From Thiohalobacter thiocyanaticus (lineage in GTDB: Bacteria > Pseudomonadota > Gammaproteobacteria > Thiohalobacterales > Thiohalobacteraceae), in assembly GCF_002356355.1 (NCBI RefSeq), contig NZ_AP018052.1, positions 1,426,001 through 1,490,000 on the forward strand: a stretch of 64,000 bases of DNA. Reading direction: 5' to 3'. Each line of letters starts with the position of its first letter. The first letter of the stretch is position 1. Below, piece after piece: positions 5,179 to 54,291 of the stretch. The notes below the pieces were generated by a model. The model did no database searches. It worked only from the letters and a program-made list of their open reading frames with translations, and was not told the DNA's origin. A program made the position numbers and the translations under genes.

Positions 5179-5212
5179 TAACAAGGCAAACGCTGAACCA
5201 GGAGACGCTTTC

Positions 5213-9575: not shown

Positions 9576-9577
9576 TT

Positions 9578-10528: not shown

Positions 10529-10531
10529 AGC

Positions 10532-11587: not shown

Positions 11588-11659
11588 GAGGTGTGCCCGT
11601 CCCAAGGGCCTGGACAGGTCGTCGTGGCAAAAATCCCCTTTATTTTATAAGTTTAAACT

Positions 11660-15358: not shown

Positions 15359-15361
15359 TCG

Positions 15362-21982: not shown

Positions 21983-22582
21983 ATGCATAAAGTTTTCATT
22001 AGCTTTCATAGTAGCGATATCGCCTACAAAGACTCGTTGATTAAGTTCAATGAGGACAATCCTATGTTTATCGACGGATCTGTAGATACCCGTGATATTT
22101 CAGATGATTTGCCGGATGACAGAATTCGACAGAAAATCCGCGACGAGTATCTCGGAGACTCTACTGTAACAATTCTTTTGGTGGGGCAAGGCACCAAAGG
22201 GAGAAAGCATGTTGACTGGGAAGTTTACTCAAGCATGTACGATGGAAAATCCAACAAACGATCCGGTGTCATAGCAGTTCTACTTCCAGGCGCCAACCCC
22301 GGCAACAACTGGACTGCGGCTCACGACAATGAGAAAAGCGCGATCTACCCCGAAACAACGAGCTGGACATCTGTTGATAATCGTGCTGAATACGAACTCC
22401 GCTATCCATATCTTCCCGCAAGAATAATTGATAATCTTCTCAGTAAAGAGGTTAAGTTATCCGTTGTTCCTTGGAAAAAATTAGATACCAAAACCTTGCC
22501 ACTACTAATTGAAAATGCATTCGATTCTCGCATTTCAAATCAGTACGACCTCAGCCGCCCAATGCGCCGTGCAAACTCATGA
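21983..22582 (+). CDS. TIR-like (MTH538/ThsB-type) protein
   Basis: MHKVFISFHSSDIAYKDSL at the start, then RDEYLGDSTVTILLVGQGTKGRKHVDWEVYSSM, is the pattern of the TIR-like MTH538 family that includes Thoeris ThsB. Such proteins make nucleotide signals from NAD or act as NAD-consuming effectors in phage defence. The domain fills residues 1-160; the C-terminal ~40 residues are a short helical extension. The stop overlaps the start of the SLATT-like membrane gene (ATGA), so the pair forms one unit: sensor/signal protein plus membrane effector. Low GC compared with neighbours indicates recent transfer. Confidence 0.85.
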   Translation: MHKVFISFHSSDIAYKDSLIKFNEDNPMFIDGSVDTRDISDDLPDDRIRQKIRDEYLGDSTVTILLVGQGTKGRKHVDWEVYSSMYDGKSNKRSGVIAVLLPGANPGNNWTAAHDNEKSAIYPETTSWTSVDNRAEYELRYPYLPARIIDNLLSKEVKLSVVPWKKLDTKTLPLLIENAFDSRISNQYDLSRPMRRANS

Positions 22583-23478: not shown

Positions 23479-23554
23479 CAATAGGCTGCTGTCGGACTGG
23501 TAACAGTTCCGGCTTCGCCTCAACTTTCACCAGCCGCAGAGCCAAACGTTGGGC
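23473..23554 (+). repeat. attC-like integron recombination site 1
   Basis: It ends in GTTGGGC (GTTRRRY core) and begins with GTATAAC (one mismatch to RYYYAAC). The arms 23484-23501 and 23529-23543 pair fully except for three unpaired bases on one strand (G23488, T23492, A23496). That reproduces the extrahelical bases that orient attC folding. The length (82 bp) and position between genes fit. Confidence 0.8.
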
Positions 23555-23609
23555 GGCCGTGATCCGCTCGTCGATAAAAAAATAGACCGCTTCATTAAGG
23601 AGATTTGGA

Positions 23610-24002
23610 ATGCCTAACGTTTGTTTTTTTAGCTTCACAGAAGCTGATCGTGAAGTTGTCCTTACTATCAAGGGCCGGGCTGTGAACCCAAATTACAGAA
23701 ATCTAAATTTTCGTGTTAAAGACTTATTGAAGCGCTGGAATACGGAGGATGTTGCCGTTATCCGTCAGGCGATTTCAAAAGCCATGAGTGGAACTTCGCG
23801 GACAATCGTGTTCGTCGGTGAGAGAACCCATCGTAGTCGATGGGTACGTGAAGAAGTTGAAATGACGTTAAGAAATAATAAGCCCGTCTACGCTATCCGC
23901 TTGAACAATACAAACGGTACTAAACCGAAGGTATTAGAGGATAACGGGATTAATCTATACAACTGGAGCGAGGAGAGGCTTCAAGATCTCGCTACTCTGT
24001 GA
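23610..24002 (+). CDS. Short TIR-like (MTH538/ThsB-type) protein
   Basis: 130 residues starting MPNVCFFSFTEADREVV. The second half, RTIVFVGERTHRSRWVREEVEMTL followed by KPVYAIRL, is the conserved TIR-like MTH538 core, and the domain makes up the whole protein. It is not closely similar to the TIR-like protein in the previous cassette. Ribosome-binding site AAGGAGA lies 10 bp before the ATG. The next gene begins 12 bp after its stop, so the two form one cassette. Confidence 0.82.
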   Translation: MPNVCFFSFTEADREVVLTIKGRAVNPNYRNLNFRVKDLLKRWNTEDVAVIRQAISKAMSGTSRTIVFVGERTHRSRWVREEVEMTLRNNKPVYAIRLNNTNGTKPKVLEDNGINLYNWSEERLQDLATL

Positions 24003-24014
24003 AGGAGAGGTACG

Positions 24015-25334
24015 ATGAAGCCTTATTGTTTTGTGCTTATGCCGTTCGGGCGGAAATCTGATGAAACCGGGCGTGTTGTCGAATTCGACGCTGTGTATGA
24101 TCAGATAATTGCGCCTGCAATAGAGGATGCAAACTTAGAGCCTATAAGAGCTGACGAAGAGATAATTGGCGGAATCATACATAAGCCAATGTTTGAGCGC
24201 CTCATGATGTGCGAATATGCCGTAGCGGATCTCACAACCGCAAATGCGAATGTGTTTTATGAGTTAGGAATTAGGCATGGAGTGAGACCGTATAGCACCG
24301 TACCTATTGCCGGTAGTGGAATGCGTCTGCCTTTTGATGTGGCACCTTTGAGAGCAATCCTCTATGAATTAGACGACTATGGGTGTCCAGAAAAGCCAGA
24401 ATTAGCACGCAAACTATTAAGGGAAAGGCTTGAATCCTGCCGTGATCCTTCCGACGACAGTCCGTTATATCAATTATTAACTGATGTGCCGCGACCTGAT
24501 CTTCAAAGGTTAAAGACAGATTCGTTTAGAGATTTGGTTGAATATTCGAAATCTATGAAGGGGCGTTTAAGATGCGCGCGCGAGGAAGGTAGTAGTGCGA
24601 TCGATGTTATTGAGAAAGAAATTGATGTAGTCGATGCTGACCCAGCTATCGTTATTGATCTATTCCTGTCTTACAGAGCAGTAAAAGATTGGCAGAGAAT
24701 GGTCGATCTGACTAATAAAATGGCACCACCACTGAAGCAAACGATCCTTGTACAGGAGCAGTTAGGGTTTGCCTTGAATAGGCTAAAGCTCCACAAAGAA
24801 GCCGAGCGTATATTAATCGAAATTATCGATAATCATGGACCAAGCAGCGAAACAAACGGAATTTTAGGGCGGGTATATAAAGATCAGTGGATAACAGCCA
24901 AGGGAAATGGAAGTCCAGCAGCCAGCGCCTACTTGAAAAAGGCTATTGATGCCTACCTGCAAGGTTTTGAGGCGGATTGGAGGGATGCATACCCTGGGAT
25001 CAATGCGGTAACGCTTATGGAGTGTACTGAACCCCCTGATCCACGGAGAATCGAGCTTATTCCGGTGGTAGCCTATTCGGTAAAGAGGCGATTAGCCAGT
25101 AAAAACCCTGATTACTGGGATCATGCGACCGAATTAGAAGTGCATGTTTTGTCCCAAGAATCTGAAAAAGCTCAAGCTGCGTTAGGAATGGCTCTAGCCT
25201 CGATTCGAGAGACGTGGGAGCCAGAGACGACTGCTAATAACATAAGAATGATAAGGAATGCACGAGAAAGTAGAGGAACTGATTGTGAGTGGATTCAGGA
25301 TATTGAAAACGCTCTAGAGCAAGCTCGACAATGA
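24015..25334 (+). CDS. DRHyd-like / TRAF-binding-like (DUF4071-type) protein
   Basis: Residues 1-~140 form a Rossmann-like nucleotide-processing domain: CFVLMPFGRKSD, then MCEYAVADLTTANANVFYELG. This resembles the deoxyribosyltransferase-like domain (DRHyd) found in ASK kinases and prokaryotic conflict proteins. The remainder (~200-439) is helical and TPR-like (VQEQLGFALNRLKLHKEAERILIEI, ASAYLKKAIDAYLQGFEADW), as in the DUF4071/TRAFs-binding region. It shares a cassette with the small TIR-like protein. I infer that it receives or modifies the TIR product, or serves as a nucleotide-cleaving effector. RBS GGAGAGG precedes the ATG. Confidence 0.75.
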   Translation: MKPYCFVLMPFGRKSDETGRVVEFDAVYDQIIAPAIEDANLEPIRADEEIIGGIIHKPMFERLMMCEYAVADLTTANANVFYELGIRHGVRPYSTVPIAGSGMRLPFDVAPLRAILYELDDYGCPEKPELARKLLRERLESCRDPSDDSPLYQLLTDVPRPDLQRLKTDSFRDLVEYSKSMKGRLRCAREEGSSAIDVIEKEIDVVDADPAIVIDLFLSYRAVKDWQRMVDLTNKMAPPLKQTILVQEQLGFALNRLKLHKEAERILIEIIDNHGPSSETNGILGRVYKDQWITAKGNGSPAASAYLKKAIDAYLQGFEADWRDAYPGINAVTLMECTEPPDPRRIELIPVVAYSVKRRLASKNPDYWDHATELEVHVLSQESEKAQAALGMALASIRETWEPETTANNIRMIRNARESRGTDCEWIQDIENALEQARQ

Positions 25335-28340: not shown

Positions 28341-29015
28341 ATGTGTGGACGCTTCGCCAGGACCACGCCCCCCGAGCCCTTCGCAGAACTTGCCAAGGCC
28401 CGCTGCGAAGTCGGCGCGCTGCCCCCTCGGTATAATCTCCTGCCGGGCCAGTCAGTACTAGCCTTCCGCCTGGATCCGGCCGGTGAGCGTGAGCTGGTCG
28501 CCCTGCACTGGCCCTACATCCCGCCGTTCGAGAAGCAGCCCAAGACCCGGTACTCCACCATCAATGCCAAGGCCGAAACACTGACGACCAGCCGCCTTTG
28601 GCGGTTTCCTTTCCAGCATTTCCGCTGTCTCATCGCCGCTGATGGCTTCTATGAGCCGAAGGACACCGGTGAGAAGCGCAAGCTGCAGTATTACTTTCGA
28701 CGCAGGGACGGCGAACCCTTCTTTATGGCCGGCGTCTGGGGCCGCTGGGAGCCGCCAGAAGGGGAGGTGGGTGAGGCGTTTGATTCCTGCGCGATCATCA
28801 CGACCGAAGCCAACGCAGCCGTTGGCGAGGTTCATCCGCGGATGCCGGTGATTCTGCCGCCCGATGCCTGGGCGCAGTGGCTGGATCCGGCAGTCACTGA
28901 TCCTGAGCAAGTACAGGACCTGTTGGAGCCAGCGCCGGACGAAGGATGGGAAGGGTATCCGGTGGGCTATTACACCCGCGAGGATAGCCCGCGGGTGATC
29001 GAACGCCAAAATTGA
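28341..29015 (+). CDS. SRAP-domain protein (HMCES/YedK-like), intact copy 2
   Basis: Abasic-site processing protein: Cys2 (MCGRFARTTPP) forms a thiazolidine link with an abasic site in single-stranded DNA. Conserved features: PPRYNLLPGQ, STINAKAET (catalytic Glu), LIAADGFYEP, AGVWGRWEPP, and VHPRMPVILP (catalytic His). The common GFYEW is GFYEP in both copies. Length 224 residues, normal. It is a near-identical paralogue of the interrupted copy at 19673 over more than 600 bp, including sequence beyond the stop. It is probably SOS-inducible through the LexA box. Confidence 0.92.
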   Translation: MCGRFARTTPPEPFAELAKARCEVGALPPRYNLLPGQSVLAFRLDPAGERELVALHWPYIPPFEKQPKTRYSTINAKAETLTTSRLWRFPFQHFRCLIAADGFYEPKDTGEKRKLQYYFRRRDGEPFFMAGVWGRWEPPEGEVGEAFDSCAIITTEANAAVGEVHPRMPVILPPDAWAQWLDPAVTDPEQVQDLLEPAPDEGWEGYPVGYYTREDSPRVIERQN

Positions 29016-29594: not shown

Positions 29595-29864
29595 ATGGAA
29601 GAGGCCGCAGAGCGGATGGATCTTCCTACTGATGCTTGGCCTCAGATCACTGATGTAAAAGAAAAATACGGCGGATTGAGAATCTACTACCAAGGGTGCA
29701 GCCTGTCAGATGAAGCGGTTTTCGATCAGATTATCGAAGCCGCTGAAGAGCGCATCGAGCGCACATGCGTGAAATGTGGCGCCCCAGGCCGTGTCGGTCC
29801 CTGTGGCATGTGGTCGTATTGCGGCGAGCACATGCCCGAGACTGAGGACGAGCGCGTGCTGTGA
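29595..29864 (+). CDS. Zinc-ribbon protein, N-terminally short paralogue
   Basis: 89 residues. ITDVKEKYGGLRIYYQG followed by ERTCVKCGAPGRVG and a Cys-Gly-Glu-His end matches the 152-residue protein at 42511-42966 (AQIKQKFGGLRVYLS, FRTCEKCGKPARPG) but lacks its first ~65 residues. Four metal ligands can be counted (CVKC, then C and H/C near WSYCGEH). Function unknown; such proteins are widespread in mobile DNA. It could be a truncated gene or a short family member. Confidence 0.5.
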   Translation: MEEAAERMDLPTDAWPQITDVKEKYGGLRIYYQGCSLSDEAVFDQIIEAAEERIERTCVKCGAPGRVGPCGMWSYCGEHMPETEDERVL

Positions 29865-34270: not shown

Positions 34271-34474
34271 ATGTCTGACCGGTTGCGCCGAGTCGCCTAT
34301 ATCTATCGCGCCGCAATACAGCTATTTGAAGGTGACAGGAGGATGGCCCGGCGTTGGCTGCGTCGGCCATCCAGGGCTCTCGGCGGTGATACGCCTCTGG
34401 AGTATATAAGGACGGATGCGGGTGCCGAGGAGGTATTGGACCTGATCGGTCGATTGGAGCATGGAGTGATGTGA
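34271..34474 (+). CDS. DUF2384 (MbcA/ParS) antitoxin C-terminal domain protein
   Basis: 67 residues from ATG with GGAGG 5 bp upstream. AIQLFEGDRRMARRWLRRPSRALGGDTPLEYIRTDAGAEEVLDLI is the toxin-binding DUF2384 C-terminal domain; the usual Xre-like N-terminal domain is missing. Its stop overlaps the GTG of the next gene, which carries a full Xre-MbcA-like region. It may be a stand-alone half antitoxin or a truncation. No RES-type toxin follows. Confidence 0.65.
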   Translation: MSDRLRRVAYIYRAAIQLFEGDRRMARRWLRRPSRALGGDTPLEYIRTDAGAEEVLDLIGRLEHGVM

Positions 34475-35292
34475 CCACAACTATGGACGTATCGACACTG
34501 GATCCACAACGCGTCGCGACCGCCGCGCTCCAGGGCTTCTTCACCATCACTGGGCAGTGGGGCTTGAGCGGTGCGGAGCAGCGGAAACTGCTCGGAGACC
34601 CTCCCGAGGATACCTTCTTCGAGTGGAGAACGGAGCATACGGCCAGCCAGCTCGAACCGGATACGCTGAAGCGAATCAGTTACATCCTGGGCATCCACAA
34701 GGCGCTGTGCATCCTGCTGCCATCGAGACGTGCGGCCTTCGAGTGGGTCAAAAAGCCCAACGATGCACCCCTCTTTCAGGGGCAGACCGCGCTCTCGCGG
34801 ATGCTGACAGGGCGCATGGAGGACCTGCACGATGTACGGGCATATCTGGATGGTGAGTGTGGGGACACCATGGAAATGGAACACAGGAATTTCAGGGCCA
34901 TCATCGTCATCGACTTCGATGAACAAGATCAATGCTACCACGGCCACGTCACAAACTTTCCTGGTATCTGGCCGTTTCATGGCGCCACTATTGACGCACT
35001 CCGCCAGGCATTCGAGCAGGTGGTCGACGACTATTATGAGGCCCATCCTACATTCGCGGGGATGATCACCGAGGCAGACCATCAAGCTAAGCGCGATCGG
35101 CAGGCGGCGTTCGCACGCTGGTTCGACGAAAATCCGGACAGGGAGGTGCCCCACTCGAAACTATTCGAGAACTGCAAGATTGAGCCGTCGGCCACGCTGA
35201 AGGCGAAACAGGATGCGCTCGATGAAGCGATGCGGGCATTCGACCGGACCTGCGAGAAGTTCGATAACGCGCTGCGTGAGCTGGCGAAGTAG
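34471..35292 (+). CDS. MbcA/ParS-like antitoxin fused to a HicB-like domain
   Basis: Residues ~15-130 are Xre-MbcA-ParS-like: SGAEQRKLLGDPPEDTFFEW, LEPDTLKRISYILGIHKALCILLP, then EWVKKPNDAPLFQGQTALSRM. Residues ~140-190 read as HicB: FRAIIVIDFDEQDQCYHGHV, then FHGATIDALRQAFEQVVDDYYE. The C-terminal ~70 residues are a charged helix. It is followed after 6 bp by a Doc toxin, so it occupies the antitoxin place of a TA pair. This is a domain pairing I have not met. GTG start 4 bp after GGAG; ATG 12 bp further is an alternative. Confidence 0.72.
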   Translation: MTTTMDVSTLDPQRVATAALQGFFTITGQWGLSGAEQRKLLGDPPEDTFFEWRTEHTASQLEPDTLKRISYILGIHKALCILLPSRRAAFEWVKKPNDAPLFQGQTALSRMLTGRMEDLHDVRAYLDGECGDTMEMEHRNFRAIIVIDFDEQDQCYHGHVTNFPGIWPFHGATIDALRQAFEQVVDDYYEAHPTFAGMITEADHQAKRDRQAAFARWFDENPDREVPHSKLFENCKIEPSATLKAKQDALDEAMRAFDRTCEKFDNALRELAK

Positions 35293-35298
35293 GCCGTT

Positions 35299-35682
35299 AT
35301 GAGCGGCTGGAACTGGATCCCGGACAATACTCTGGCTGTCTGTCACACCGATCTATTGAAATACGGTGGCACGAGTGGCTTGATCGATCACGCCAAGCTG
35401 GACTCGGCCATGACGCGCGCCACCAATCTGGCTGCCTATGGTGAGCCGGACCTGGCGGAACTGGCCGCGGCCTATGGCTACGGTGTGGCCCGTAACCACC
35501 CCCTCCCGGATGGCAACAAGCGGGCCGCCCTGGTCGCCATCGATATCTTCCTCCAGCTGAACGGCCAGGAGCTGATCGCTGATGAGGCTGAGGTGGTGCG
35601 GGTCATCCAGGCCCTGGCTGCCGGCAATCTCGAGGAACCGGAGCTGGCGGACTGGATCCGCGCTCACATGCAAAATGTTTAG
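35299..35682 (+). CDS. doc: Doc (Fic-fold) toxin
   Basis: Death-on-curing toxin, a kinase-like Fic protein that inactivates elongation factor Tu in the P1 prototype. The active loop reads N66-HPLPDGNKR (Fic consensus HxFxDxNKR), with VARNHPLPDGNKRAALVAID following the usual helices (LDSAMTRATNLAAYG, DLAELAAAYGYG). Leu replaces the usual Phe in the motif. At 127 residues the length is normal. The stop codon lies within the first of two inverted repeats. The upstream fusion gene takes the place of the usual Phd antitoxin. Confidence 0.88.
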   Translation: MSGWNWIPDNTLAVCHTDLLKYGGTSGLIDHAKLDSAMTRATNLAAYGEPDLAELAAAYGYGVARNHPLPDGNKRAALVAIDIFLQLNGQELIADEAEVVRVIQALAAGNLEEPELADWIRAHMQNV

Positions 35683-41262: not shown

Positions 41263-41727
41263 TCATCGTTGGATTTCACTTGTGTCATAATACATAACGT
41301 AGCCGCGTTTTTTGTTACCAGAAAGACCACAAGACCGGTAGAAGTCATGTGTGGTATCTTTCTTAGATCCTGTTAACAGCATTACCTTGTAACAACTGTG
41401 GCCCCAGGCGACGTCGAGCGCATGTTTAACGACGCGCTTGCCAAACCCCCGTCCTCGAGACTGCTCATCCGTTACGACATTCTCGATTACACCAAACGGG
41501 CGAGCTGACCGGGTCAGATTCGGCGTGCAACTGAGATAGCAAGTTGACTCGACTCTGCCCTTGTCCTCGAGCACAAACAGGTGTAGCCAGTGATTCTCCA
41601 TTATTTCGTCGAACGTAGCTTGTGCGGTCTCGTCTGTGAGAACAGAATCCTGCGGATTCAGCTGTCTATACAGCTCAATAATATGCACGAGATCGCCTCG
41701 CACGGCTTCGCGCACTCCCGATCTCAT
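41263..41727 (-). CDS. GNAT-family N-acetyltransferase
   Basis: 154 residues. The acetyl-CoA site reads VIENVVTDEQSRGRGFGKRVVKHAL (motif A, R-x-x-G-x-G/A) and YKVMLLTGSKKDTTHDFYRSCGLS is motif B. The substrate cannot be told. It is the last gene of the 11-gene minus-strand operon; its ATG overlaps the previous stop as ATGA. Confidence 0.85.
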   Translation of the reverse strand: MRSGVREAVRGDLVHIIELYRQLNPQDSVLTDETAQATFDEIMENHWLHLFVLEDKGRVESTCYLSCTPNLTRSARPFGVIENVVTDEQSRGRGFGKRVVKHALDVAWGHSCYKVMLLTGSKKDTTHDFYRSCGLSGNKKRGYVMYYDTSEIQR

Positions 41728-42503
41728 AGAGCTACCATCCTGCCCGGATTATATTTACCTGACGGCGTCTCCCCCGGATACCCCGGCTGATTCGACACCA
41801 GCCGCACTCCGTTGACCCAGGTATCGACATTCCCGTGGGTATGGCCATAGATCCAGAGCTGCGCGGCCTGCGGGTTGAACAGGTCTGTGAGATCCGACCA
41901 ATAGGCGCCGGACAGTGCATCCACCGGGTATTCCGGGCACTGGCAGGCCGGGGCCGGGCCATGATGGGTGATCACCACGGTGTTACCCGGATGGGGTTCG
42001 GCGAGCTTCTCTGCCAGCCACTCGCGGGCCCGGATATGCAGGTCCGCGGCGTCTTTGGGCAGGAATTTCCGGTACCGATTCCCGATCCGGGTCCGGATCC
42101 GCCGGTGGTCATTCATCATGTCTTCGCATTCCTGCATCGCGAGGCCCTGGCGGATCTCGGGGTCGGCCCGGTAATCGGTCCACAGGGTCGCACCGAGATA
42201 GCGAGCCCCGTCGAGGATCAGCTCATCGCAATCCAGCAGATGGACGCCCTGTTCCTTGGCGGCGTCACGCATCTCTTTGAGGGCGTACTCATGCACCCGG
42301 CCATAGAATTCATGGTTGCCGGGGACGTAGATCACCGGCACGCCACGCTCCCGGGCGAGCTCGCCGGCCCAGAGGATGCCCTGGACGCCTGTGCTGATAT
42401 CGCCAGCCAGGATGATGACATCGGCGTCGGTCCTGGCGAGCAGCAACTCGCCCTTGCGGCCGCCAAATTCCAGGTGCAGGTCCGAGGCGTATTGGATTTT
42501 CAT
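41724..42503 (-). CDS. Metallophosphoesterase
   Basis: Calcineurin-like fold. Motifs: IQYASDLHLEF (D-x-H), VIILAGDIS (GD), VIYVPGNHEFYG (GNHE), VVITHHGPAP and IYGHTHGNVD (GHTH); all five metal-binding blocks are present. Substrates in the family range from cyclic nucleotides to phosphoproteins and nucleic acid ends. It lies 7 bp after the zinc-ribbon gene in the PP2C operon. Confidence 0.93.
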   Translation of the reverse strand: MKIQYASDLHLEFGGRKGELLLARTDADVIILAGDISTGVQGILWAGELARERGVPVIYVPGNHEFYGRVHEYALKEMRDAAKEQGVHLLDCDELILDGARYLGATLWTDYRADPEIRQGLAMQECEDMMNDHRRIRTRIGNRYRKFLPKDAADLHIRAREWLAEKLAEPHPGNTVVITHHGPAPACQCPEYPVDALSGAYWSDLTDLFNPQAAQLWIYGHTHGNVDTWVNGVRLVSNQPGYPGETPSGKYNPGRMVAL

Positions 42504-42510
42504 GTCCGGT

Positions 42511-42966
42511 CTACTCAGGATACAGATTCAGGTGGCCGGCTTCGGTCCACTCACCGTCGCCCCATGCCTCGCGCTCATCCTTACGACATGAGAGGCATAG
42601 TGTCAGCACGGTGCCATTGAGCCAGCCCGGGCGCGCAGGTTTGCCGCATTTCTCGCAGGTGCGGAAGCTGCACATCTCTGCATGCTGGATGTAAAAGTAG
42701 AAACCCTTCGGAAGCCTGCTCAGATACACGCGCAGACCGCCGAATTTCTGCTTGATCTGCGCGACAGCCGGATACTCCGGGCTTGCAGGGTCAAGCCCCA
42801 TATCCGCTGAATCGGCTTCAAGCGTTTCGAGCAGGGCCCAGACAATAGGTCGCCACCCCATATCGATCGCCAGCTCCCCATGGACCAGTCTGGGGTTGGT
42901 GATTTCCTCCCTGTTTCGGAAGAATGCCGGAAAGCGCTCGAAAAACATCTCATCTGTCAATTTCAC
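42511..42966 (-). CDS. Zinc-ribbon protein of unknown function
   Basis: 151 residues from a GTG that overlaps the previous stop (GTGA). The N-terminal ~95 residues are alpha/beta (FFERFPAFFRNREEITN, MGWRPIVWALLETLEAD); AQIKQKFGGLRVYLS is followed by a four-Cys ribbon (FRTCEKCGKPARPG, LTLCLSCRKDE). A shortened relative lies at 29595. The family is widespread in mobile DNA and has no function I know of. Confidence 0.7.
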   Translation of the reverse strand: MKLTDEMFFERFPAFFRNREEITNPRLVHGELAIDMGWRPIVWALLETLEADSADMGLDPASPEYPAVAQIKQKFGGLRVYLSRLPKGFYFYIQHAEMCSFRTCEKCGKPARPGWLNGTVLTLCLSCRKDEREAWGDGEWTEAGHLNLYPE

Positions 42967-43487
42967 TGCGATCCTCCATGGCGCGTGAGCGCCATTCGGT
43001 ATAACTCGATCATCTGCCGGACATCGTTGCCGGCATCGTGCCGCCTGCCGGCGACGCGTTGCCAGGCCGCTTCCCGCCATTGCACATCCCAGCCAAGGCG
43101 ACGGGTTACCGAGGCGGGCATGAGGCCGTGAATCAGGCGCCAGTAGTCTCCGATTGCGAATACCGGGCTCAGTTCTGCCACCTCAAACAGCGTCTGACAC
43201 CACATTCGGTCCAGGCCCGAGTCGGCATAGAGGATCCGGCCGCCGAGCTGGGCGTTCATCCGCGCCGCGACCTCGTGCGGCGGCCTGCCATGGGTGTACA
43301 GCTGATCCCGGGGGATCAGGTGGATGGCTTGTGCATTCGAATCCCAGTCATCCCATTCTTCGATTCCGGCTGGCGAGATGAGCCAGCACTCGATGCGGCT
43401 GTCCGGCAGCGACCAGGCGACCTGAATGGGGTAGGAACCCGGATTCAGGGAGCTGGCCTCGAAATCCAGGAAGCAGGGCAGGCTCAC
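42963..43487 (-). CDS. DEDDh 3'-5' exonuclease-like protein B
   Basis: 174 residues. CFLDFEASSLNPGSYPIQVAW gives the D-x-E of motif I (D8, E10). LYADSGLDRMWCQTLFEV supplies motif II aspartate, and RRHDAGNDVRQMIELY motif III H and D. It is a compact relative of protein A two genes upstream (same FLD-EASSL start, same order). It may trim RNA or DNA ends. 4-bp overlaps on both sides. Confidence 0.75.
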   Translation of the reverse strand: MSLPCFLDFEASSLNPGSYPIQVAWSLPDSRIECWLISPAGIEEWDDWDSNAQAIHLIPRDQLYTHGRPPHEVAARMNAQLGGRILYADSGLDRMWCQTLFEVAELSPVFAIGDYWRLIHGLMPASVTRRLGWDVQWREAAWQRVAGRRHDAGNDVRQMIELYRMALTRHGGSQ

Positions 43488-43753
43488 CGGGAGCCTCCGA
43501 ACTCGTCCCGGCAGAACTTCTCTCGTAGATAATTGACGTGCAGCGGCACAACATCCTTGCTGGCGATAACGCCGGCTCGCTCCAACGCCAGCAACAGCAA
43601 TTCCACATCGTCCATTATCACCTCGTCATCAGACAATCGCGTGATGACATCCGCCATCGCGTCACCCGCTGTACGCACGTAGCGGACACTGTGCTGGCGC
43701 GCCAGGTCGGTGATGTACTCGGCGACGCCAGTGGTAGGGATTTTGGCGCTCAT
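43484..43753 (-). CDS. 89-residue hypothetical protein between two exonucleases
   Basis: It starts MSAKIPTTGVAEYITDLARQHSV; helical, with an acidic centre (LSDDEVIMDDVELLLLALERAGV) and a basic end (LREKFCRDEF). No motif recognised. Both ends overlap neighbours by 4 bp, so it is translated with them and may be a partner of exonuclease A or B. Confidence 0.65.
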   Translation of the reverse strand: MSAKIPTTGVAEYITDLARQHSVRYVRTAGDAMADVITRLSDDEVIMDDVELLLLALERAGVIASKDVVPLHVNYLREKFCRDEFGGSR

Positions 43754-44259
43754 GCGAACTCCGCCTGCGCCCGCCGGTACCAGGCCAACCGATGCCGGAC
43801 ATCGGTCCCGGCCCGGTGAGGCTGACCCGCCACATCGGCCCAGGCGGCGTCATAAAGTTCATGCAGCCGCCCGCCGCGCGCATCAGGCCACAGTACCCAG
43901 ATCGGGTGCAGGCGGACCGGACTGCGTACACCCAGGGCATCGCCGAACAGCGTCTCCAGCCAGCCCTGGTCATAATCAGGGGCATCGGAGTACACCGGCT
44001 GCCCGGCCAGCACCGCCTGGATCCGTCCGGCCACCAGTTTCGGGTCCGCGCCGTGTTCACTCAGATAGCGCCGGGACAGGCCGTGGACGGCCTGCGCGGC
44101 CGGGTCCCAATCGGTCCAGTCGAGGATGTGATACGGGTCGATCAGGTGCGCCTCGACCTCGCCATTCGGGTACGACCAGGCGATCTCGATCGGGTAGGAA
44201 TCCCGCCCGAGTGAGCTGGCCTCGATGTCCAGAAATTGGGGCAGGGGATGCAGCGTCAT
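43750..44259 (-). CDS. DEDDh 3'-5' exonuclease-like protein A
   Basis: 169 residues. QFLDIEASSLGRDSYPIEIAW (D11, E13), VYSDAPDYDQGWLETLF and QPHRAGTDVRHRLAWY form the DEDDh set. It is a paralogue of protein B at 42963 with the same architecture, diverged to low identity. The middle has a family-specific WTDWDPAAQAVHGL segment. Overlaps neighbours by 4 bp. Confidence 0.75.
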   Translation of the reverse strand: MTLHPLPQFLDIEASSLGRDSYPIEIAWSYPNGEVEAHLIDPYHILDWTDWDPAAQAVHGLSRRYLSEHGADPKLVAGRIQAVLAGQPVYSDAPDYDQGWLETLFGDALGVRSPVRLHPIWVLWPDARGGRLHELYDAAWADVAGQPHRAGTDVRHRLAWYRRAQAEFA

Positions 44260-44846
44260 GATTTCTGCCTCCCCAACCGGGCCTGGCCGAAGATGTATGG
44301 CATCAGTCTGACCATGTTCCGCGCATCGTCGATGCCCCGGTGATGAGTGCCTTCCAGCGGCAGGCCCGCGAGCTGGAGTGCCTTCTTCATCCCGACCGAT
44401 TTACCGATGCCCTGGCGCTTGGCGAACCGGGCTTTGATATTGATGTGATAATCCGTCGGAAACGGGTAGGGCACCCGATGGTGCGCGCAGTCCTGGAGGA
44501 ACTGGTTGCGATCATAATTGCCCCAGCTACAGAACACCGGGCTGGCGAATCCGCCCACCCAGGCCCGGAAGCGGTCATTGACCACGGGAAATGGATCCGC
44601 TGCCTCGACCTCTGCCTGGGTGATGCTGGTCAGCCGGGTGCAGAACTCGGTCAGGAGCGGATTGCGCACCGGGCGCACGAACGCCTCGAACTCACCGACC
44701 TGCGCCAGGGCCTTGCCCTCGACCGCGACGGCGCCGATCTCGATGATTTCCATCTCATGTCGCGGGAATTCCCCTGCATCGGTGCAGGTGGCCTCCAGGT
44801 CGACGATGAGGTAGGTGTTGCCCTTTTGGCTGGACATGGCATTCAC
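44256..44846 (-). CDS. DEDDh 3'-5' exonuclease (ERI1/KapD-like)
   Basis: 196 residues. TYLIVDLEATCTDAGEFPRHEMEIIEIGAVAV (D16, E18), VFCSWGNYDRNQFLQDC (motif II) and THHRGIDDARNMVRLM (motif III H and D) are the full set of the ERI1-type exonuclease family that degrades single-stranded RNA ends. It follows PP2C phosphatase 1 with an ATGA overlap. The other two exonuclease-like genes of this operon are more distant relatives. Confidence 0.9.
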   Translation of the reverse strand: MNAMSSQKGNTYLIVDLEATCTDAGEFPRHEMEIIEIGAVAVEGKALAQVGEFEAFVRPVRNPLLTEFCTRLTSITQAEVEAADPFPVVNDRFRAWVGGFASPVFCSWGNYDRNQFLQDCAHHRVPYPFPTDYHINIKARFAKRQGIGKSVGMKKALQLAGLPLEGTHHRGIDDARNMVRLMPYIFGQARLGRQKS

Positions 44847-46156
44847 TCACTGTGCTTCCGGTCATGGGTCCTGTATTCGAACCGGAGGGCCTTGCGGCGT
44901 TCGAACCGTTTTATCACCCACAGCTTTACCCCTTCGTCACCGTCCACCTGGATGAGCGCGCGCCAATCAAATAGACCAGCAACGCGGATATCATCCCGGT
45001 ATTCCTCGGGTAGACCCTGCGTGAGCACATAGGCCGTCTCGCCGTCCTGCCAGACATCCAGCGTCCCGACGATAGGCCAAGGGTCAGGCGCAGGGCGCAG
45101 GGCGACCATCGTGATGTTGTCGGTCAGGTTCTGCCTGCTGACCAGCTCGGTGCCGATGGCCTCCATTGATTCTCCGGCGCGGAGGCGTTCGGCGATCTCC
45201 CGATAAGCGGCGTGGCGCTCCTCCAGGTTTCCCGCGTTGTGGACCCCGTCGGTGACGCCCAGGATCAGGCTGTCCTGTGGGACGTTGAAATCCTGCAACT
45301 CCGGCTCGCGAAATAACAAGCCATCGAGTTCCGTATCACCCAGGGCGCGGGTCATGGCAAGGCCATACCCGTAATCCCCGCCTCCGTTCATCAGATATTG
45401 ATCACCGATATAGGCGCGACACAGGATACTGTCGTAATCATTTCTTTCATGCGCTTCATCGATTTGTGCCTGAATACGCTCCCGATCCGCTATACATGTC
45501 TGCACCGAGTGATCGGGCGTGACCCGCAACTCCCCCTCGGGAGAGAGGATCGCGATGGACGAATCCCCAAGCTGGGCAGTAAATATCAGCAATCCGTTCT
45601 CTTCCGTTATGACATAGGCCAGGGAAAGTGTCGAACCTGTTCGATGGCTTTTCTTAAAATCCGATTGCAACTGAGTCACGGTATCTCGAAGCGCGTCATG
45701 AATGTCCCGATACGGATCCAATCTGATGGCTTTTTCACGCTGCTGTTTGATGCGTTTATCGACCAGATTGTCCCGGGCAACTTGGTCCAGGATGGCTCGC
45801 TTACCCGCCTCGTCCGCCTCTTCATATCCCGTGAATCCCAAATCCATATCGAGATAATCGGGATCCCTACCTTTAATCCACGCTTCAATCTCATCAGGCC
45901 CCAACGCTGCCTCGATCTTTTCTCGCCGCGCCTGATGCGCGGAAAGCTGCAAAGGCAACTTCCGGATAAGCGCCATCCGGAAATAATGGGCGAGCCGGCT
46001 TGCAGCAAAATCGGCAACATAGCTTCCGCCATGCCCATCAAGCACTGCCAACAGGTAGCCATCCTCCACCGGCTGCGCCACCCAGCGGTCCTCCTGGCTG
46101 TGACGCTGGTTGGTGGCCTGATATACGGCTAGAGTGAGCCAGTCGAGTGTGTTCAT
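44843..46156 (-). CDS. PP2C-family protein phosphatase 1
   Basis: 437 residues. All metal-site aspartates are visible: HSQEDRWV, AVLDGHGGSYVA (~38-46), AQLGDSSIAIL, LAMTRALGDTELDG, LGVTDGVHNAG and LTDNITMVAL. A ~95-residue insert between the DGH and GDS motifs and a C-terminal ~85-residue extension (WPIVGTLDVWQDGETAYVLT) are not in minimal PP2Cs. It should remove phosphate from Ser/Thr of an unknown target in a metal-dependent way. Overlaps phosphatase 2 by 4 bp. Confidence 0.93.
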   Translation of the reverse strand: MNTLDWLTLAVYQATNQRHSQEDRWVAQPVEDGYLLAVLDGHGGSYVADFAASRLAHYFRMALIRKLPLQLSAHQARREKIEAALGPDEIEAWIKGRDPDYLDMDLGFTGYEEADEAGKRAILDQVARDNLVDKRIKQQREKAIRLDPYRDIHDALRDTVTQLQSDFKKSHRTGSTLSLAYVITEENGLLIFTAQLGDSSIAILSPEGELRVTPDHSVQTCIADRERIQAQIDEAHERNDYDSILCRAYIGDQYLMNGGGDYGYGLAMTRALGDTELDGLLFREPELQDFNVPQDSLILGVTDGVHNAGNLEERHAAYREIAERLRAGESMEAIGTELVSRQNLTDNITMVALRPAPDPWPIVGTLDVWQDGETAYVLTQGLPEEYRDDIRVAGLFDWRALIQVDGDEGVKLWVIKRFERRKALRFEYRTHDRKHSE

Positions 46157-47238
46157 GTGTTACCTCGGATGTGGCAGGCATCGTGCAGTGCCACGATCGT
46201 GATGTTGTCATCATGATCCGGCCGCTGCGCCAGCTCATCTCCGATGGCCTGGGCGCGCTCACCTGCCACCAGGCGCTGCGCGATCTCCCGATACACGCCA
46301 TGGCGCGCCTCCACCGTGTCGGCGACATGCACGCCATCCGTCACGCCCAGGATCAGGCTGCCTCGTGGGGCGCTGAATCCCTGCACGTCAGGCTCGCGGA
46401 TCAGCAAACCCTCGAGCTCCTTGTCTCCCAGGGCGCGGGTCATGGCCAGCCCGACACCCAGATCGCCGGTGTCATTCATCAGGTATGCTGGCGCCATAGC
46501 CGGCGTGAAATGGGCGCGATAAAAGACACTCCTGTGGTCTTCCACAAAATGCGCCCTGTCGATTTCATTCTGAATTGCCGCACGATCCGACTCGCAGGTA
46601 TGCACCGAATGATCCGCCGTCACATGCAATTCGTCTTCGGGCGTCAGGATGACGATGGCGGAATCTCCGAGCTGCGCCGTATGGATGTGCAGGGCATCCT
46701 CAGTCGGATAAACGTAGGCCATGGAGAGCGTCGATCCCGCGGTGGAATCACCGAAATCCTCAACCAGCTGGGTGACCGTGGCCCGCAGTGAATCGTCGAT
46801 CGTCGATTTTCCCCTGTGCTCCGCCAGCGCGTAATCCGCCATGTAGTCCTGCGCAAGTTGATTGATTTGATCCCGTTTTTCGTTGTCATCCGCTGTCGCC
46901 GTATCGAGCCCCATTTCCCAAAGATCAAACTCGAAGGACGGGGAGCCCCTTTCCGCAATCCACGCCTGAATAGCCTCCGGCGTCAGCCCGGCCAGGAATT
47001 CCTCACGCCATGCGGCATCAGTCCGCTGCTGGTGGGGCAGCTCACGTTCAAATCCCAGTTGAAAATAATGCGCTAGCCGGTTTGCGGCCTGGTCTGAAAC
47101 CTCGTCATTGATGTGGCCATCCAGCACTGCCAATAAATACCCGCGGTGAAACGGCTGGGCGACCCAGCGATCTTCCTGGGGCGGTTTCAGGTTGGTCGCT
47201 TGATACCCCTCCATGTAGAACCGATCGAATATACTCAT
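46153..47238 (-). CDS. PP2C-family protein phosphatase 2
   Basis: 361 residues. It starts MSIFDRFYMEGYQATNLKPPQEDRWVAQ. Motifs AVLDGHINDEV (DGH kept, GG lost), AQLGDSAIVIL, LAMTRALGDKELEG, LGVTDGVHVADT and HDDNITIVAL. It shares the ~95-residue insert type of phosphatase 1 but lacks its C-terminal extension. Loss of the DGHGG glycines may alter activity. It overlaps phosphatases 1 and 3 by 4 bp each. Confidence 0.92.
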   Translation of the reverse strand: MSIFDRFYMEGYQATNLKPPQEDRWVAQPFHRGYLLAVLDGHINDEVSDQAANRLAHYFQLGFERELPHQQRTDAAWREEFLAGLTPEAIQAWIAERGSPSFEFDLWEMGLDTATADDNEKRDQINQLAQDYMADYALAEHRGKSTIDDSLRATVTQLVEDFGDSTAGSTLSMAYVYPTEDALHIHTAQLGDSAIVILTPEDELHVTADHSVHTCESDRAAIQNEIDRAHFVEDHRSVFYRAHFTPAMAPAYLMNDTGDLGVGLAMTRALGDKELEGLLIREPDVQGFSAPRGSLILGVTDGVHVADTVEARHGVYREIAQRLVAGERAQAIGDELAQRPDHDDNITIVALHDACHIRGNT

Positions 47239-48560
47239 GGATCATCTTCCTTGTGCGGATGGTCGTGATAGCGCAGCGCCAGCTTGAGGCGACATGCTCG
47301 CGCTTGTCCATCGACGTGCGCGATGTGCGTGACATGATCGCCGCCGTGTATCCCGATGATCGGGACGAAGAACGTGATCGCCTCGATACGCTTGCGCATC
47401 TCGTCCGGGAGGTCGGCCAGGAGGACATAGTGATCCCTATTCGGCGCCGTCCAGACATCCACCTCCAGATCAACAGGGCGGTCGTCTTCGGCTTGGCGAT
47501 ACGCCACGATAGTGAGGTTATCCCCGCTTCCTTCGCGCTCGAGCAGGGATTGGCCAATCGCCTGCGCGGACTCACCGGCAAGCAGATGCTGCGTGATCTC
47601 CCGGTAAATCCATTCCGGCTTCCCACCCTTGGCCGCATCCCCGACAAGCACACCATCGGTCACGCCAACCACCAGGGAATCGAGGGGCACGATGTGATCC
47701 GTCAGTTCCGGCTCACGGATCAATAAACCGTCCCACATCGTATCCCCGATCGCGCGGGTGACGCTCAATCCCCTCGAGGACCCCATGGTCACGCCGGCCC
47801 AGACACGACTGTCGCTGAGGGAGCCCCAGCTCAAATCCGGCGGGATATCCCCTGACTCCCCGATGGCCTCGAGCCGGCGTTGGATCTCAGCCCGATCCGC
47901 CTCATGCGTCGCAGCGTTATGCGCCGCCGTCGTGATTAACTCACCGTCCGGCGGCTGTATGAGAATCATCGAATCCCCGAGCTGGGCCGTGTGGACGTGG
48001 AGCTTGTCGTCTACGACGCGGATATAGGCCAACGACAGGGTCGTACCTATTTCTTTCTTGCCCCGCATATCCTCGATCAACTGCGCGACGGTATCCCGCA
48101 GCGCATCATGGATCTCATAGAGCGGGTCCGTATCCTGGCGCTCGCGTCTCAGTTCGCCAAGGCGGCTATACGCATAGTTGCCGCGGATATCATCTTCAGT
48201 GGCCGGCACGCTGTCATACACGGGAAATATTTCATCATCCTCTTGACGCTCCCGCGCAACCGCATACCCGGGATGCGCCTCCAGCGCAGCCTTCGTATCG
48301 GCATCACTCATCTCCTCACGAATCGCCTGAAACTGCGCTTCATCCGCTTTTTTCTGGATCGGCAGTTCACGACTGAGACCCTGATCGACATACAGCGGGA
48401 GTCGGGCGGCGACGTGACCAGAGACGAGCCCAATTCCGTGGCCATCGCATACGCCGAGAAGAAACCCGAGGCTGACAGGCTGAGCGACATAGTAATCCTC
48501 CTGAATCGGCCGTCGGCCAATGGTGGAGTAGACGTCCAGTTTGTATTCGTTATGGAGCAT
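47235..48560 (-). CDS. PP2C-family protein phosphatase 3
   Basis: 441 residues. Motifs RRPIQEDYYVAQ, GVCDGHGIGLVSG, AQLGDSMILIQ, LSVTRAIGDTMWDG, VGVTDGVLVGDA and GSGDNLTIVAY. Like phosphatase 1 it has the middle insert and a C-terminal extension (DLEVDVWTAPNRDHYVLLADL), which differs in sequence but aligns in place. 4-bp overlap with phosphatase 2; a 3-bp gap separates it from phosphatase 4. Confidence 0.92.
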   Translation of the reverse strand: MLHNEYKLDVYSTIGRRPIQEDYYVAQPVSLGFLLGVCDGHGIGLVSGHVAARLPLYVDQGLSRELPIQKKADEAQFQAIREEMSDADTKAALEAHPGYAVARERQEDDEIFPVYDSVPATEDDIRGNYAYSRLGELRRERQDTDPLYEIHDALRDTVAQLIEDMRGKKEIGTTLSLAYIRVVDDKLHVHTAQLGDSMILIQPPDGELITTAAHNAATHEADRAEIQRRLEAIGESGDIPPDLSWGSLSDSRVWAGVTMGSSRGLSVTRAIGDTMWDGLLIREPELTDHIVPLDSLVVGVTDGVLVGDAAKGGKPEWIYREITQHLLAGESAQAIGQSLLEREGSGDNLTIVAYRQAEDDRPVDLEVDVWTAPNRDHYVLLADLPDEMRKRIEAITFFVPIIGIHGGDHVTHIAHVDGQARACRLKLALRYHDHPHKEDDP

Positions 48561-48563
48561 TTC

Positions 48564-49580
48564 TCATGCCTCACCTTCATCGAATTGCACCTTGATGCCG
48601 TTTTGGCGCTCCCAGCTGAGCACATCCTGGGGATAGGCCGCATCCGGCACTCCCGGTACCGATGGGACTGCCGACGCGAGTAGAAACTGATTCAGCGATT
48701 CGCGTACGGACCGGGGCAGGTCGCTCACCCGCGCGTATTTCATCCCCTGGTGTTCGTGCAGCGGCAGCCTGAGTGATCCGCCGTCCCCATGACGGCAAGC
48801 GGTAATGATGGTCAGATTGTCCGAGGTCCGCGGGTCATTGGCATGCTGCCGTCCCAGGTCAGCGGCGCTGCCTCCGGCGGCGACCCGATCGAGCAGATCG
48901 GTGTAGTGGGCCTCCAGTGTCTCGGAATCCGTGCTGACCTGAATCCCGTCCGTCGCCAGGATCAGGTTGAACTCGCTCTCTGGGGTGAGCGGATGCGTTT
49001 CCACCTCCGGCTCCCGGATCAGGTAGCGGGCGAAATCCCGGTCACCGATTGCTCGTGTCAGCGCCAACGCGGTCCAGGAGGCGAGACGGAGATGCGATGA
49101 GTCGATATGCAGCTCACCCCGCATGATCTGGTCCTGATGGGCGGCTTCAATCCGGGCGACATCCTTGGGATTGAGCTCGACATTGTGCGCGGGCGCGATC
49201 CAGTCCTCGCCGTCGATCCGCAGCAGAATCGGGCTGTCGCCCAGGACGGCGGTGGTGATCCGGTCATCCTCGATGAAGGCCGCCGAGAGGGTGGTGCCGC
49301 CGGTGTCATTCATCCAGACATCCCGCGCACTGGGATAGCGGGCCACCAGCTCGGCGATCACCCGGCGGAAGGCTGCGGTCGGCGGGGTCTCATCCCGATC
49401 CAGCTCCTCGAGTGCGCGCTGGAGCAGTCCCGGCAGCGCAAGGGCACAATCCTCGGCAATGCCAGGGCCGCCGTGGCCGTCGAGGACGGCAATCAGGGTG
49501 CCGTCGAATAGTGGCGTGACCACGTAGCGGTCTTCCTGGAGCGGGCGCTGGCCCCGGTTTTGGTAGACATGAAATTCCAT
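48564..49580 (-). CDS. PP2C-family protein phosphatase 4
   Basis: 338 residues, first gene of the operon. Motifs QRPLQEDRYVVTP, AVLDGHGGPGIAED, AVLGDSPILLRID, LALTRAIGDRDFAR, LATDGIQVSTD and TSDNLTIITA. It lacks the long middle insert, so it is closest to ordinary PP2Cs, but carries a C-terminal extension like 1 and 3. No kinase, vWA or forkhead-associated partner is found in the window. Confidence 0.92.
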   Translation of the reverse strand: MEFHVYQNRGQRPLQEDRYVVTPLFDGTLIAVLDGHGGPGIAEDCALALPGLLQRALEELDRDETPPTAAFRRVIAELVARYPSARDVWMNDTGGTTLSAAFIEDDRITTAVLGDSPILLRIDGEDWIAPAHNVELNPKDVARIEAAHQDQIMRGELHIDSSHLRLASWTALALTRAIGDRDFARYLIREPEVETHPLTPESEFNLILATDGIQVSTDSETLEAHYTDLLDRVAAGGSAADLGRQHANDPRTSDNLTIITACRHGDGGSLRLPLHEHQGMKYARVSDLPRSVRESLNQFLLASAVPSVPGVPDAAYPQDVLSWERQNGIKVQFDEGEA

Positions 49581-49786
49581 ATGGATTATCGCCTTCGGAT
49601 TGGGATAGGTGACCGACGCCGCAAGATCGAATCGAGAACACAGGATAATCCAGAGAAAAATATATTAAAATCACTGAAATAAAAATAAAATTATATTTTT
49701 ACGATATATCTTGATATAATGTTTCGTGGTAATGCGGATATCTCCAGAAATGGGCAAGTAAGTAACCTGAGTGAAGATCTCCTCGC
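49581..49786. promoter_or_regulatory. Divergent AT-rich promoter region
   Basis: 206 bp between the PP2C operon and the plus-strand gene at 49787, markedly AT-rich from 49640 to 49730. On the plus strand TATAAT lies at 49715-49720 with only a weak -35. It probably serves both directions; no clear repeat operator seen. Confidence 0.45.
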
Positions 49787-52741: not shown

Positions 52742-53116
52742 ATGAAATCTGACGGTGGTGATACGGGTCATATCAAGCCCTGCCTCATCCGCGCCTGTCG
52801 GGCGCCGGCGTACTTCGACATGGGTGAGACCCTGTTCAATCGATACATCAAGCCCCTGATCCCGACGGACATCCGGTTCGGCGAGCGGGGGGTGTTCTAC
52901 AGAAAGGTTGATTTGGACTGGGCACTCGAGGAGTATTTGAGGCGCAGCGGACAGTCCGGTCACGACCGCAATATTCCCATGGAGGAAACATGCGAAAGTA
53001 TCCCGGATTGTCAAAACGCAGTAACTCCCCGTACTGGCAGATCAACAAAACAGTCAAGTACCGGAGGAAGAAAGTTGTCATACGCGAAAGCACGGGCTGC
53101 GAGAATTACGAACTAG
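52742..53116 (+). CDS. Excisionase-like regulator
   Basis: 124 residues from ATG (alternative GTG 9 bp before). PCLIRACRAPAYFDMGETLFNRYIKPLIPTDIRFGERGVFYRKVDLDWALEEYL is a MerR-like winged helix typical of AlpA/Xis island regulators. Its last ~40 residues overlap the integrase gene by 127 bp in another frame, so its C-terminus is unconstrained. It probably directs excision from the tRNA site. Confidence 0.7.
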   Translation: MKSDGGDTGHIKPCLIRACRAPAYFDMGETLFNRYIKPLIPTDIRFGERGVFYRKVDLDWALEEYLRRSGQSGHDRNIPMEETCESIPDCQNAVTPRTGRSTKQSSTGGRKLSYAKARAARITN

Positions 53117-54210
53117 CCCTGCAATACTGTCAGAAACGTGAACAGGAGGAACTCGAGCGTCTCATACACGGGTTACGCTACCCATTCACGGTTGAAGATG
53201 CCGCAGCCAAGCTGATGAGCATCGATGGCCGGAATAACCAGTCGGATGTCTATCACTGTGACATGCTGGTCGCGGCACTCGGACACGTTCCGTTGGCCGA
53301 GATGCACAATGACCACCCGGATCTGGCGGCGTTCAGGCAGGCGCGGTTGAAGACCTGCAAGAACAACACCGTCAATCGATCCCTGGAGGTGCTTCGACAC
53401 ATGCTGAACCTGGCCGCTTACGAGTGGAAGGACAACGGCATGAGCTGGATCCAGCATCCGCCGAGGATCAAGCTGCTGCCGCGACGGCCGGGTCGCTTCG
53501 GCGATGTTACCAAGGGCGAGTCCGGAGGCTACCCGCTGACGCACCAGCAGCAGCGGGAGATGTTTCGGCGCCTGCCCATGCACGCCTACCTGGTGGCCTG
53601 GTTCATCACCATGACAGGGTGCCGCGAGCATGAGGTTCTGCCTGAGCGGGATGCCAAGGGAGAACTGATTGGCGGGTTACGCTGGCAGTACGAGGTCAAG
53701 CTGCCCAATGGCTGGTCGGTGTTCGATTTGCCGATGAGCAAGAATGGCCGGCCGCGGCGGATCTTCCTCAACAGTGTGGCACGTGAAATCGTGGAGACGG
53801 TCCGCGGCGATCATCCCGAGTTTGTCTTTGTCTTCCGGGGCAGGACCGACAAGGGGGGCATTGCCAAGCCGTTCACCAAGCTCAACAACACGGCCTGGAA
53901 ACGGGCACGGCAGGAAGTGGGTTTGGAGCACTGTCGCGGGGAGAATATGCACCTGAGGGTGCACGATCTACGTCATACCTTTGCCACCCGTTTGCGCGAG
54001 GCGGGCGTGTCCCGCGAGGATCGCAAGGACCTGCTCGGTCATGTCAATCATGACATCACCACGCACTACTCGGCGGCGGAGACGATGACCATGGTCGGCA
54101 TGGTGGAGAGACTGGTGGAATCGGCCGAGAAACCGGCGCTCTATCTGGTTCACAACACACACAGCACACAGTCGGAAAATCGCGATGTCACTGGTGCTGC
54201 AAGTGCTTGA
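52990..54210 (+). CDS. Phage-type tyrosine integrase at tRNA-Arg
   Basis: 406 residues. The arm-binding N-terminus (SPYWQINKTVKYRRKKVVIRES) is followed by a SAM-like core-binding domain and a catalytic domain with MTGCREHEVL (Arg I), HDLRHTFATRL (H-x-x-R) and LLGHVNHDITTHYS (Tyr nucleophile). It ends 4 bp before the 3' end of the tRNA-Arg gene, the classic position for an integrase that uses a tRNA 3' end as attB. It is the likely driver of integration of the whole left-hand island. Confidence 0.93.
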   Translation: MRKYPGLSKRSNSPYWQINKTVKYRRKKVVIRESTGCENYELALQYCQKREQEELERLIHGLRYPFTVEDAAAKLMSIDGRNNQSDVYHCDMLVAALGHVPLAEMHNDHPDLAAFRQARLKTCKNNTVNRSLEVLRHMLNLAAYEWKDNGMSWIQHPPRIKLLPRRPGRFGDVTKGESGGYPLTHQQQREMFRRLPMHAYLVAWFITMTGCREHEVLPERDAKGELIGGLRWQYEVKLPNGWSVFDLPMSKNGRPRRIFLNSVAREIVETVRGDHPEFVFVFRGRTDKGGIAKPFTKLNNTAWKRARQEVGLEHCRGENMHLRVHDLRHTFATRLREAGVSREDRKDLLGHVNHDITTHYSAAETMTMVGMVERLVESAEKPALYLVHNTHSTQSENRDVTGAASA

Positions 54211-54214
54211 AAGA

Positions 54215-54291
54215 TGGCGCGCCCGGAAGGATTCGAACCTCCGACCGCCTGGTTCGTAGCCAGGTACTCTATCCAGCTGAGCTACGGGCGC
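54215..54291 (-). tRNA. tRNA-Arg (anticodon ACG)
   Basis: 77 nt on the minus strand. GCGCCCG pairs with CGGGCGC as the acceptor stem, G73 follows and CCA is encoded. The D arm has GCTC and GAGT; the anticodon stem CCTGG/CCAGG holds CTACGAA (anticodon ACG). The T loop is GGTTCGAATCC. A complete canonical cloverleaf. It marks the junction between island and backbone. Confidence 0.96.

Follow-up and report, generated by a model that had tools for sequence, protein, structure and literature searches.

The 64,000-nucleotide stretch of the Thiohalobacter thiocyanaticus chromosome analyzed here (hereinafter the window; C1:1426001-1490000 of a 3.23 Mb chromosome in a single contig) contains, at 41263-49580, 11 open reading frames (ORFs) on the minus strand that bring together four PP2C phosphatases, three DEDDh 3′-5′ exonuclease-like proteins, a metallophosphoesterase (MPE), a zinc-ribbon protein, a GNAT acetyltransferase, and an 89-aa protein. 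A preliminary description, made from the sequence alone, had presented these genes as an undescribed operon and had suggested that its phosphatases recognize phosphorylated targets, with the nucleases as output. Undescribed it is, within the literature searched, and the operon is real and unusual: a new assembly from known kinds of parts. The idea of one co-evolved system of phosphatase sensors and nuclease effectors fared less well (see below). Positions refer to the window unless prefixed with C1 (chromosome) or L (other loci examined).

An eleven-gene operon of phosphatases and nucleases

The features are given in the order of transcription; values after profile names are e-values.

49581-49786, minus strand: AT-rich intergenic stretch, likely the operon promoter region (from sequence)
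48564-49580, minus strand: PP2C-A, 338 aa; PF00481 1.8e-18; motifs QED, DGH, LGDS, TDG, DN; compact PP2C with a C-terminal extension; placed in the tree
47235-48560, minus strand: PP2C-B, 441 aa; PF00481 6.4e-07; PP2C motifs; helical insert and C-terminal extension
46153-47238, minus strand: PP2C-C, 361 aa; PF00481 6.1e-09; without C-terminal extension
44843-46156, minus strand: PP2C-D, 437 aa; PF00481 1.7e-11; AlphaFold model
44256-44846, minus strand: DEDDh-1, 196 aa, Eri1/KapD-like 3′-5′ exonuclease, GTG start; RNase_T 1e-22
43750-44259, minus strand: DEDDh-2, 169 aa, 'FLDxEASSL' family; PADLOC DEDDh 9.7e-06, phrog_192 9.3e-08
43484-43753, minus strand: 89-aa protein, no known domain
42963-43487, minus strand: DEDDh-3, 174 aa, GTG start; PADLOC DEDDh 4.7e-05, phrog_192 2.9e-05
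42511-42966, minus strand: zinc-ribbon protein, 151 aa (corrected GTG start); CxxC...CxxC
41724-42503, minus strand: calcineurin-like MPE, 259 aa; PF00149 6.1e-12, phrog_1649 6.1e-48
41263-41727, minus strand: GNAT acetyltransferase, 154 aa; PF00583 2.2e-11

The start of the zinc-ribbon gene was revised from 43080 to a GTG at 42966, most likely the true start, which has GGAGG upstream and yields a 151-aa protein with a 4-bp overlap with the DEDDh-3 stop codon. With this correction the gene junctions run +3, -4 (seven times consecutively), +7, and -4, i.e., 4-bp overlaps at 8 of the 10 junctions, much as the preliminary description had it. Eight such overlaps in series, together with a single AT-rich intergenic stretch 5′ of PP2C-A, place the operon beyond chance; judged from the gene arrangement, the eleven genes would clearly constitute one transcriptional unit. 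A consensus scan of the AT-rich stretch found no strong sigma-70 site. The G+C content (GC) of the GNAT gene, 0.50, is below that of the remainder of the operon.

All four PP2Cs match PF00481 above the Pfam cut-off and possess the QED, DGH, LGDS, TDG, and DN[IL]T motifs, with the metal-binding aspartates retained throughout, as had been read from the sequence; the sole deviation is a lysine in PP2C-C at the position normally occupied by the phosphate-binding arginine. By these motifs all four look catalytically intact. The predicted structure bears out the PP2C fold of PP2C-D: its AlphaFold model (mean predicted local distance difference test score [pLDDT] 79) recovers PP2C structures in Foldseek (E 2.5e-10) and aligns with ABI1 over 245 residues (VIA-align Z 25.7, root-mean-square deviation 3.2). 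For PP2C-A, -B, and -C the predicted fold is supported by profile and motifs. PP2C-C and -D are 52% identical, and a helical insert shared by PP2C-B, -C, -D, and a fifth member encoded elsewhere (PP2C-E, below) sets these apart from PP2C-A. The C-terminal extension, in contrast, is present in PP2C-A, -B, and -D and absent from -C and -E. No system model of PADLOC-DB 2.0.0 matched any operon PP2C, and the other operon genes gave generic DEDDh, PDC-S48, and PDC-S10 matches only. In a PF00481 profile search of 229 gammaproteobacterial genomes, PP2Cs were present in 138, and among the matches listed at least two PP2Cs within 10 kb occurred in this genome only.

The DxE...D...HxxxxD motif is retained in all three exonuclease-like proteins, in agreement with their initial assignment. 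DEDDh-1 (catalytic residues D16, E18, D112, H169, and D174) aligns over its full length with human ERI1 (1.1e-18) and best with the KapD model (8.5e-26); however, its score of 90.7 of 169 bits lies far below the KapD equivalog cut-off. Unlike it, DEDDh-2 and DEDDh-3 (44% identical to each other) have no match in Pfam and belong to a separate family, the 'FLDxEASSL' family, which is recognized only via weak exonuclease profiles (PADLOC DEDDh, phrog_192) combined with the conserved DEDDh residues; those invariant in the family correspond to D11, E13, D92 or D97, H148, and D153 of DEDDh-2, the AlphaFold model of which has a mean pLDDT of 40. The MPE has complete metal-binding motifs (DxH, GD, GNHE, THHG, GHTH) and strongly matches the phage family phrog_1649; this assignment and that of the GNAT protein stand on the Pfam matches listed above. 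The zinc-ribbon assignment also holds, with a clear CxxC...CxxC signature despite sub-threshold profile matches. The 89-aa protein has homologs (≤72% identity) on Polaromonas plasmids, amid toxin-antitoxin genes. Profile searches of the operon proteins recovered no RNA ligase, RtcB, HAD_SAK, or RNA-repair kinase or cyclase. Similarity to the zinc-ribbon protein (36% over 61 aa) is also seen in a second stretch of the window, at 29616-29798.

The two halves occur separately elsewhere

Whether the gene set recurs in other genomes was a check that the preliminary description had proposed. A GTDB-wide pattern scan returned a single match, a PP2C relative on a contig of a Porticoccaceae metagenome-assembled genome (PABE01000011.1; L012), without exonucleases, and the whole operon was not found in IMG/VR, in plasmids, or in 185 relatives, 369 genomes of the class, and 398 of the phylum. 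Each half was, however, recovered without the other.

The fifth family member, PP2C-E (C1:1415996-1416985), is encoded in the same genome, 10 kb outside the window; it is preceded by a 97-aa ORF and shows 39-43% identity to PP2C-C and -D. This region aligns with the Porticoccaceae locus over 7,048 bp at 91.9% identity (host C1:1416015-1423061, L008/L009; L012:1481-8521), and the shared cassette comprises a WYL regulator, four smaller ORFs, a tandem AAA+ ATPase, the 97-aa protein, and the PP2C, at which the homology terminates. We regard it as a candidate defense cassette, with the sequence similarity pointing to recent transfer between the two lineages. Although it carries a member of the operon's PP2C family, it is without exonuclease or phosphoesterase, and L012 has neither a DEDDh nor an MPE gene. 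A more distant PP2C, which groups with PP2C-A in the tree, occurs in another genome (G011) beside a 1135-aa helicase-domain protein. The family thus occurs without exonucleases at three other places (PP2C-E, L012, and G011), an outcome that the preliminary description itself had named as refuting its reading.

Two further ideas about this cassette were rejected. Identity between host and L012 falls from 97% in the tandem AAA+ to 84.5% in the 97-aa protein and 77% in the PP2C, a pattern for which positive selection on PP2C-E was considered; since the ratio of nonsynonymous to synonymous substitution rates (dN/dS) is 0.30, and dS rises toward the cassette edges, where identity is lowest, exceeding 1 at the PP2C C-terminus, recombination at the boundary accounts better for it. 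Nor does the PP2C regularly accompany the tandem AAA+: no PP2C was found at some 20 further loci with such an ATPase, whereas WYL recurs. The neighbors of these relatives, in other genomes and on plasmids, include WYL genes as well as BREX-2, DUF2779, or Sir2 genes; WYL regulators are known to co-localize with defense systems (PMC9122601).

The 'FLDxEASSL' family is found in 25 of the 369 class genomes, the host included. Immediately downstream of a DEDDh-1 gene lies a DEDDh-2-like gene in two genomes (G094, G217) and on plasmid pBASL58 of Pseudomonas sp. Leaf58, and a DEDDh-2/3 gene adjoins an MPE gene on IMG/VR viral contigs (L022; the near-identical L075 and L076; and L077, whose locus includes a terminase gene) and in genomes G131 and G245. 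The G245 cassette has tandem DEDDh-2/3 copies, a relative of the zinc-ribbon protein, and HAD_SAK_2 (1.8e-32). On a Marinobacter plasmid, DEDDh-1 occurs with a metallophosphatase, a nucleotidyltransferase, and an ORF resembling the 89-aa protein. None of these phage, plasmid, or chromosomal DEDDh/MPE loci showed a PP2C of the operon's family. On one contig of G131 (C13; L054:1-7861) the cassette forms a hot spot, where an MPE, a HAD_SAK-like gene, and VapBC-like ORFs crowd together with four copies of 'FLDxEASSL' DEDDh genes (one of them at L053).

A defense island devoid of kinase and vWA genes

Known defense systems cluster with mobility genes around the operon, as expected of a defense island and as the preliminary description had indicated. 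An RtcR-CARF gene, a type I restriction-modification system, and a complete type I Zorya system (ZorA-D) follow in a row at 116-18205 (PADLOC models), and a ThsB-like TIR gene (PF08937, 4.6e-17) is found at 21983-22582. The latter opens a region (21983-25334) with more TIR- or nucleotide-signaling-like ORFs, possibly a Thoeris-like or else an unassigned TIR system. The island edge is formed by two features:

52990-54210, plus strand: tyrosine-recombinase-like integrase (ORF; family from reading of the sequence alone)
54215-54291: tRNA-Arg, abutted by the integrase

GC is 0.47-0.60 across most of the island versus 0.63-0.66 past 56 kb. No exact repeat of at least 15 bases that might represent tRNA-derived attL/attR sites was found within 100 kb, and Rfam returned no element besides tRNA.

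About 13 kb upstream of the window lies a CRISPR array of 97 repeats (C1:1407314-1413105; L008:7314-13105), the spacers of which match none of the loci examined. Its repeat, GTTCGCCGCCGCGTAGGCGGCTTAGAAA, recurs every 60 bp, and Cas-like ORFs precede the array (L008:2103-7216); from reading of the repeat we take it to resemble a type I-F variant. Three near-identical ORFs of the type 'MCGRFARTTPPEPF...' are scattered across the island (19826-20392, 28341-29015, and L008:13475-14179), presumably SRAP/HMCES-like, as judged by eye. At 34471-35682 an Xre/MbcA/ParS-type antitoxin gene adjoins a Doc/Fic-like ORF; genes related to this antitoxin are also found next to the DEDDh cassette of G245 (L055).

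The two PF00069 kinases of the genome, at C1:47012 and C1:1979184, both lie outside the island, and the PF00092 (vWA) matches (C1 490634, 512631, 681279, 1885166, and 2895023) are likewise distant, which upholds the earlier reading that no kinase or TerY-like partner accompanies the operon. The first of these kinases belongs to a separate kinase-PP2C pair (C1:47012-48553). Two known systems invite comparison. In KKP, a PP2C-family antitoxin restrains two toxic kinases and, when inhibited by a phage protein, triggers defense (PMC11341870); as a PP2C-family phosphatase on a mobile element tied to phage defense, it is the nearest functional precedent. However, KKP combines a single phosphatase with two adjacent Ser/Thr (PF00069) kinases, whereas the operon has four PP2Cs, nuclease genes, and no linked kinase. 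The TerY-P triad of vWA, PP2C, and kinase-zinc ribbon (PMC11090510; kinase/PP2C/vWA trio, PMC7159879) likewise places a PP2C in a conflict-system neighborhood, and the operon too includes a zinc-ribbon protein; yet this is encoded on its own, within the nuclease half, and neither a vWA nor a kinase-zinc-ribbon gene is adjacent. Because there is no kinase or vWA gene nearby, the operon is neither TerY-P nor KKP.

A probable mosaic of two modules and its alternatives

On balance, we lean toward the operon being a mosaic accessory unit of a tRNA-Arg-linked defense island, put together from two modules that also travel separately. It is not necessarily one dedicated antiviral machine, because related genes elsewhere show these two parts traveling apart. 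The first module would be the array of four diverged paralogs of a rare, defense-island-associated PP2C family, whose stand-alone form would be the 97-aa protein and PP2C that end the mobile WYL/tandem-AAA+ cassette; the second would be a nucleic-acid 3′-end-processing cassette of the Eri1/KapD-like DEDDh, the two 'FLDxEASSL' DEDDh proteins, and the calcineurin-like phosphoesterase, which phages and plasmids also carry. What these enzymes do and act on is inferred, as is any functional tie between the modules beyond co-transcription; the proposed chemistry follows from the protein families. The PP2Cs may strip phosphate from proteins with phosphorylated Ser/Thr residues, whether these belong to the host or to other systems in the island or owe their phosphate to phage kinases, with the divergence of the paralogs possibly conferring differing substrate or inhibitor preferences. 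The MPE might clear phosphate-blocked ends, allowing the DEDDh enzymes to trim RNA or DNA 3′ ends.

Several observations weigh against this mosaic. That all eleven genes are so tightly coupled in translation suggests that they are expressed and selected together, which could yield a newly evolved joint function of both modules. The separate recurrence of the PP2Cs comes down to few loci, one near-identical and one distant. An MPE of the type in the window is present in 5 of the 24 other genomes with DEDDh-2/3, linked only in G131; because just one of the five shows linkage, the association of MPE and DEDDh-2/3 is clear mainly in viral contigs.

Next to the mosaic, we view as a tentative option that the PP2Cs serve as solitary antitoxins or 'orphan' phosphatases, kept to reverse phosphorylation by kinases encoded elsewhere, whether of the host or of an invading phage or prophage, with the downstream genes as passengers. 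In two genomes a PP2C sits, as cargo, at the end of a mobile cassette; a kinase-PP2C pair is encoded elsewhere in this genome; and the KKP antitoxin is itself a PP2C (PMC11341870). But no cognate kinase is linked, and a mere relic would hardly be expected to comprise four diverged copies with conserved active sites.

Somewhat less probable still is a single antiviral system, in which four PP2C sensors of phage phosphoproteins or inhibitors gate three DEDDh nucleases by a kinase-less, KKP-like logic. The combinatorial recognition of phosphoproteins or phosphorylated nucleic-acid ends put forward in the preliminary description is speculative. One strand with eight 4-bp overlaps, the defense-island setting, the apparently intact active sites throughout, the lack of other clustered PP2Cs among the listed matches from the 229 genomes, and the precedent of a phage protein that triggers defense by inhibiting a PP2C-family antitoxin (KKP, PMC11341870) all favor it. 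Yet the set does not recur while each half recurs alone, comparative support for phosphatase sensing with nuclease output is lacking, and KKP needs two kinases where the island has none. DEDDh exonucleases are also not known to serve as phosphorylation-controlled effectors. To phosphatase-only innate immunity, i.e., a kinase-free bank of PP2C sensors, each engaged or inhibited by different phage proteins or phosphoproteins and together controlling a co-transcribed multi-exonuclease/phosphoesterase effector, we accord a low probability.

Equally doubtful is RNA repair or end-healing, with the MPE and DEDDh proteins processing ribotoxin-cut RNA ends and the PP2Cs removing phosphate from nucleic acids or nucleotides rather than from proteins: DEDDh-1 resembles ERI1, the island also encodes an RtcR-CARF regulator, and HAD_SAK_2 and a nucleotidyltransferase neighbor related cassettes, but RtcR is ~40 kb off beside restriction genes, and a PP2C acting on nucleotides would be atypical. 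The likeness to Swiss-army-knife RNA-repair systems lies in the HAD_SAK_2 (PF18143) gene of the related G245 DEDDh/MPE cassette, a tie that rests on the Pfam description of that family; the operon, in contrast, has no HAD_SAK, ligase, or nucleotidyltransferase, and it lacks the combination of an RNA ligase or RtcB with an end-healing enzyme that typifies bacterial RNA repair, as well as a repair kinase or cyclase.

PP2Cs in bacterial conflict systems are normally read via a partner kinase. A mobile PP2C family of defense islands, unlinked to kinases and here expanded to four copies in tandem, would offer a case on which to test phosphatase-centered conflict, for example by reversing phosphorylation by phage or prophage kinases. 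The DEDDh/phosphoesterase cassette of phages, plasmids, and genomes would provide a second, separately testable unit, plausibly one of RNA or DNA 3′-end processing.

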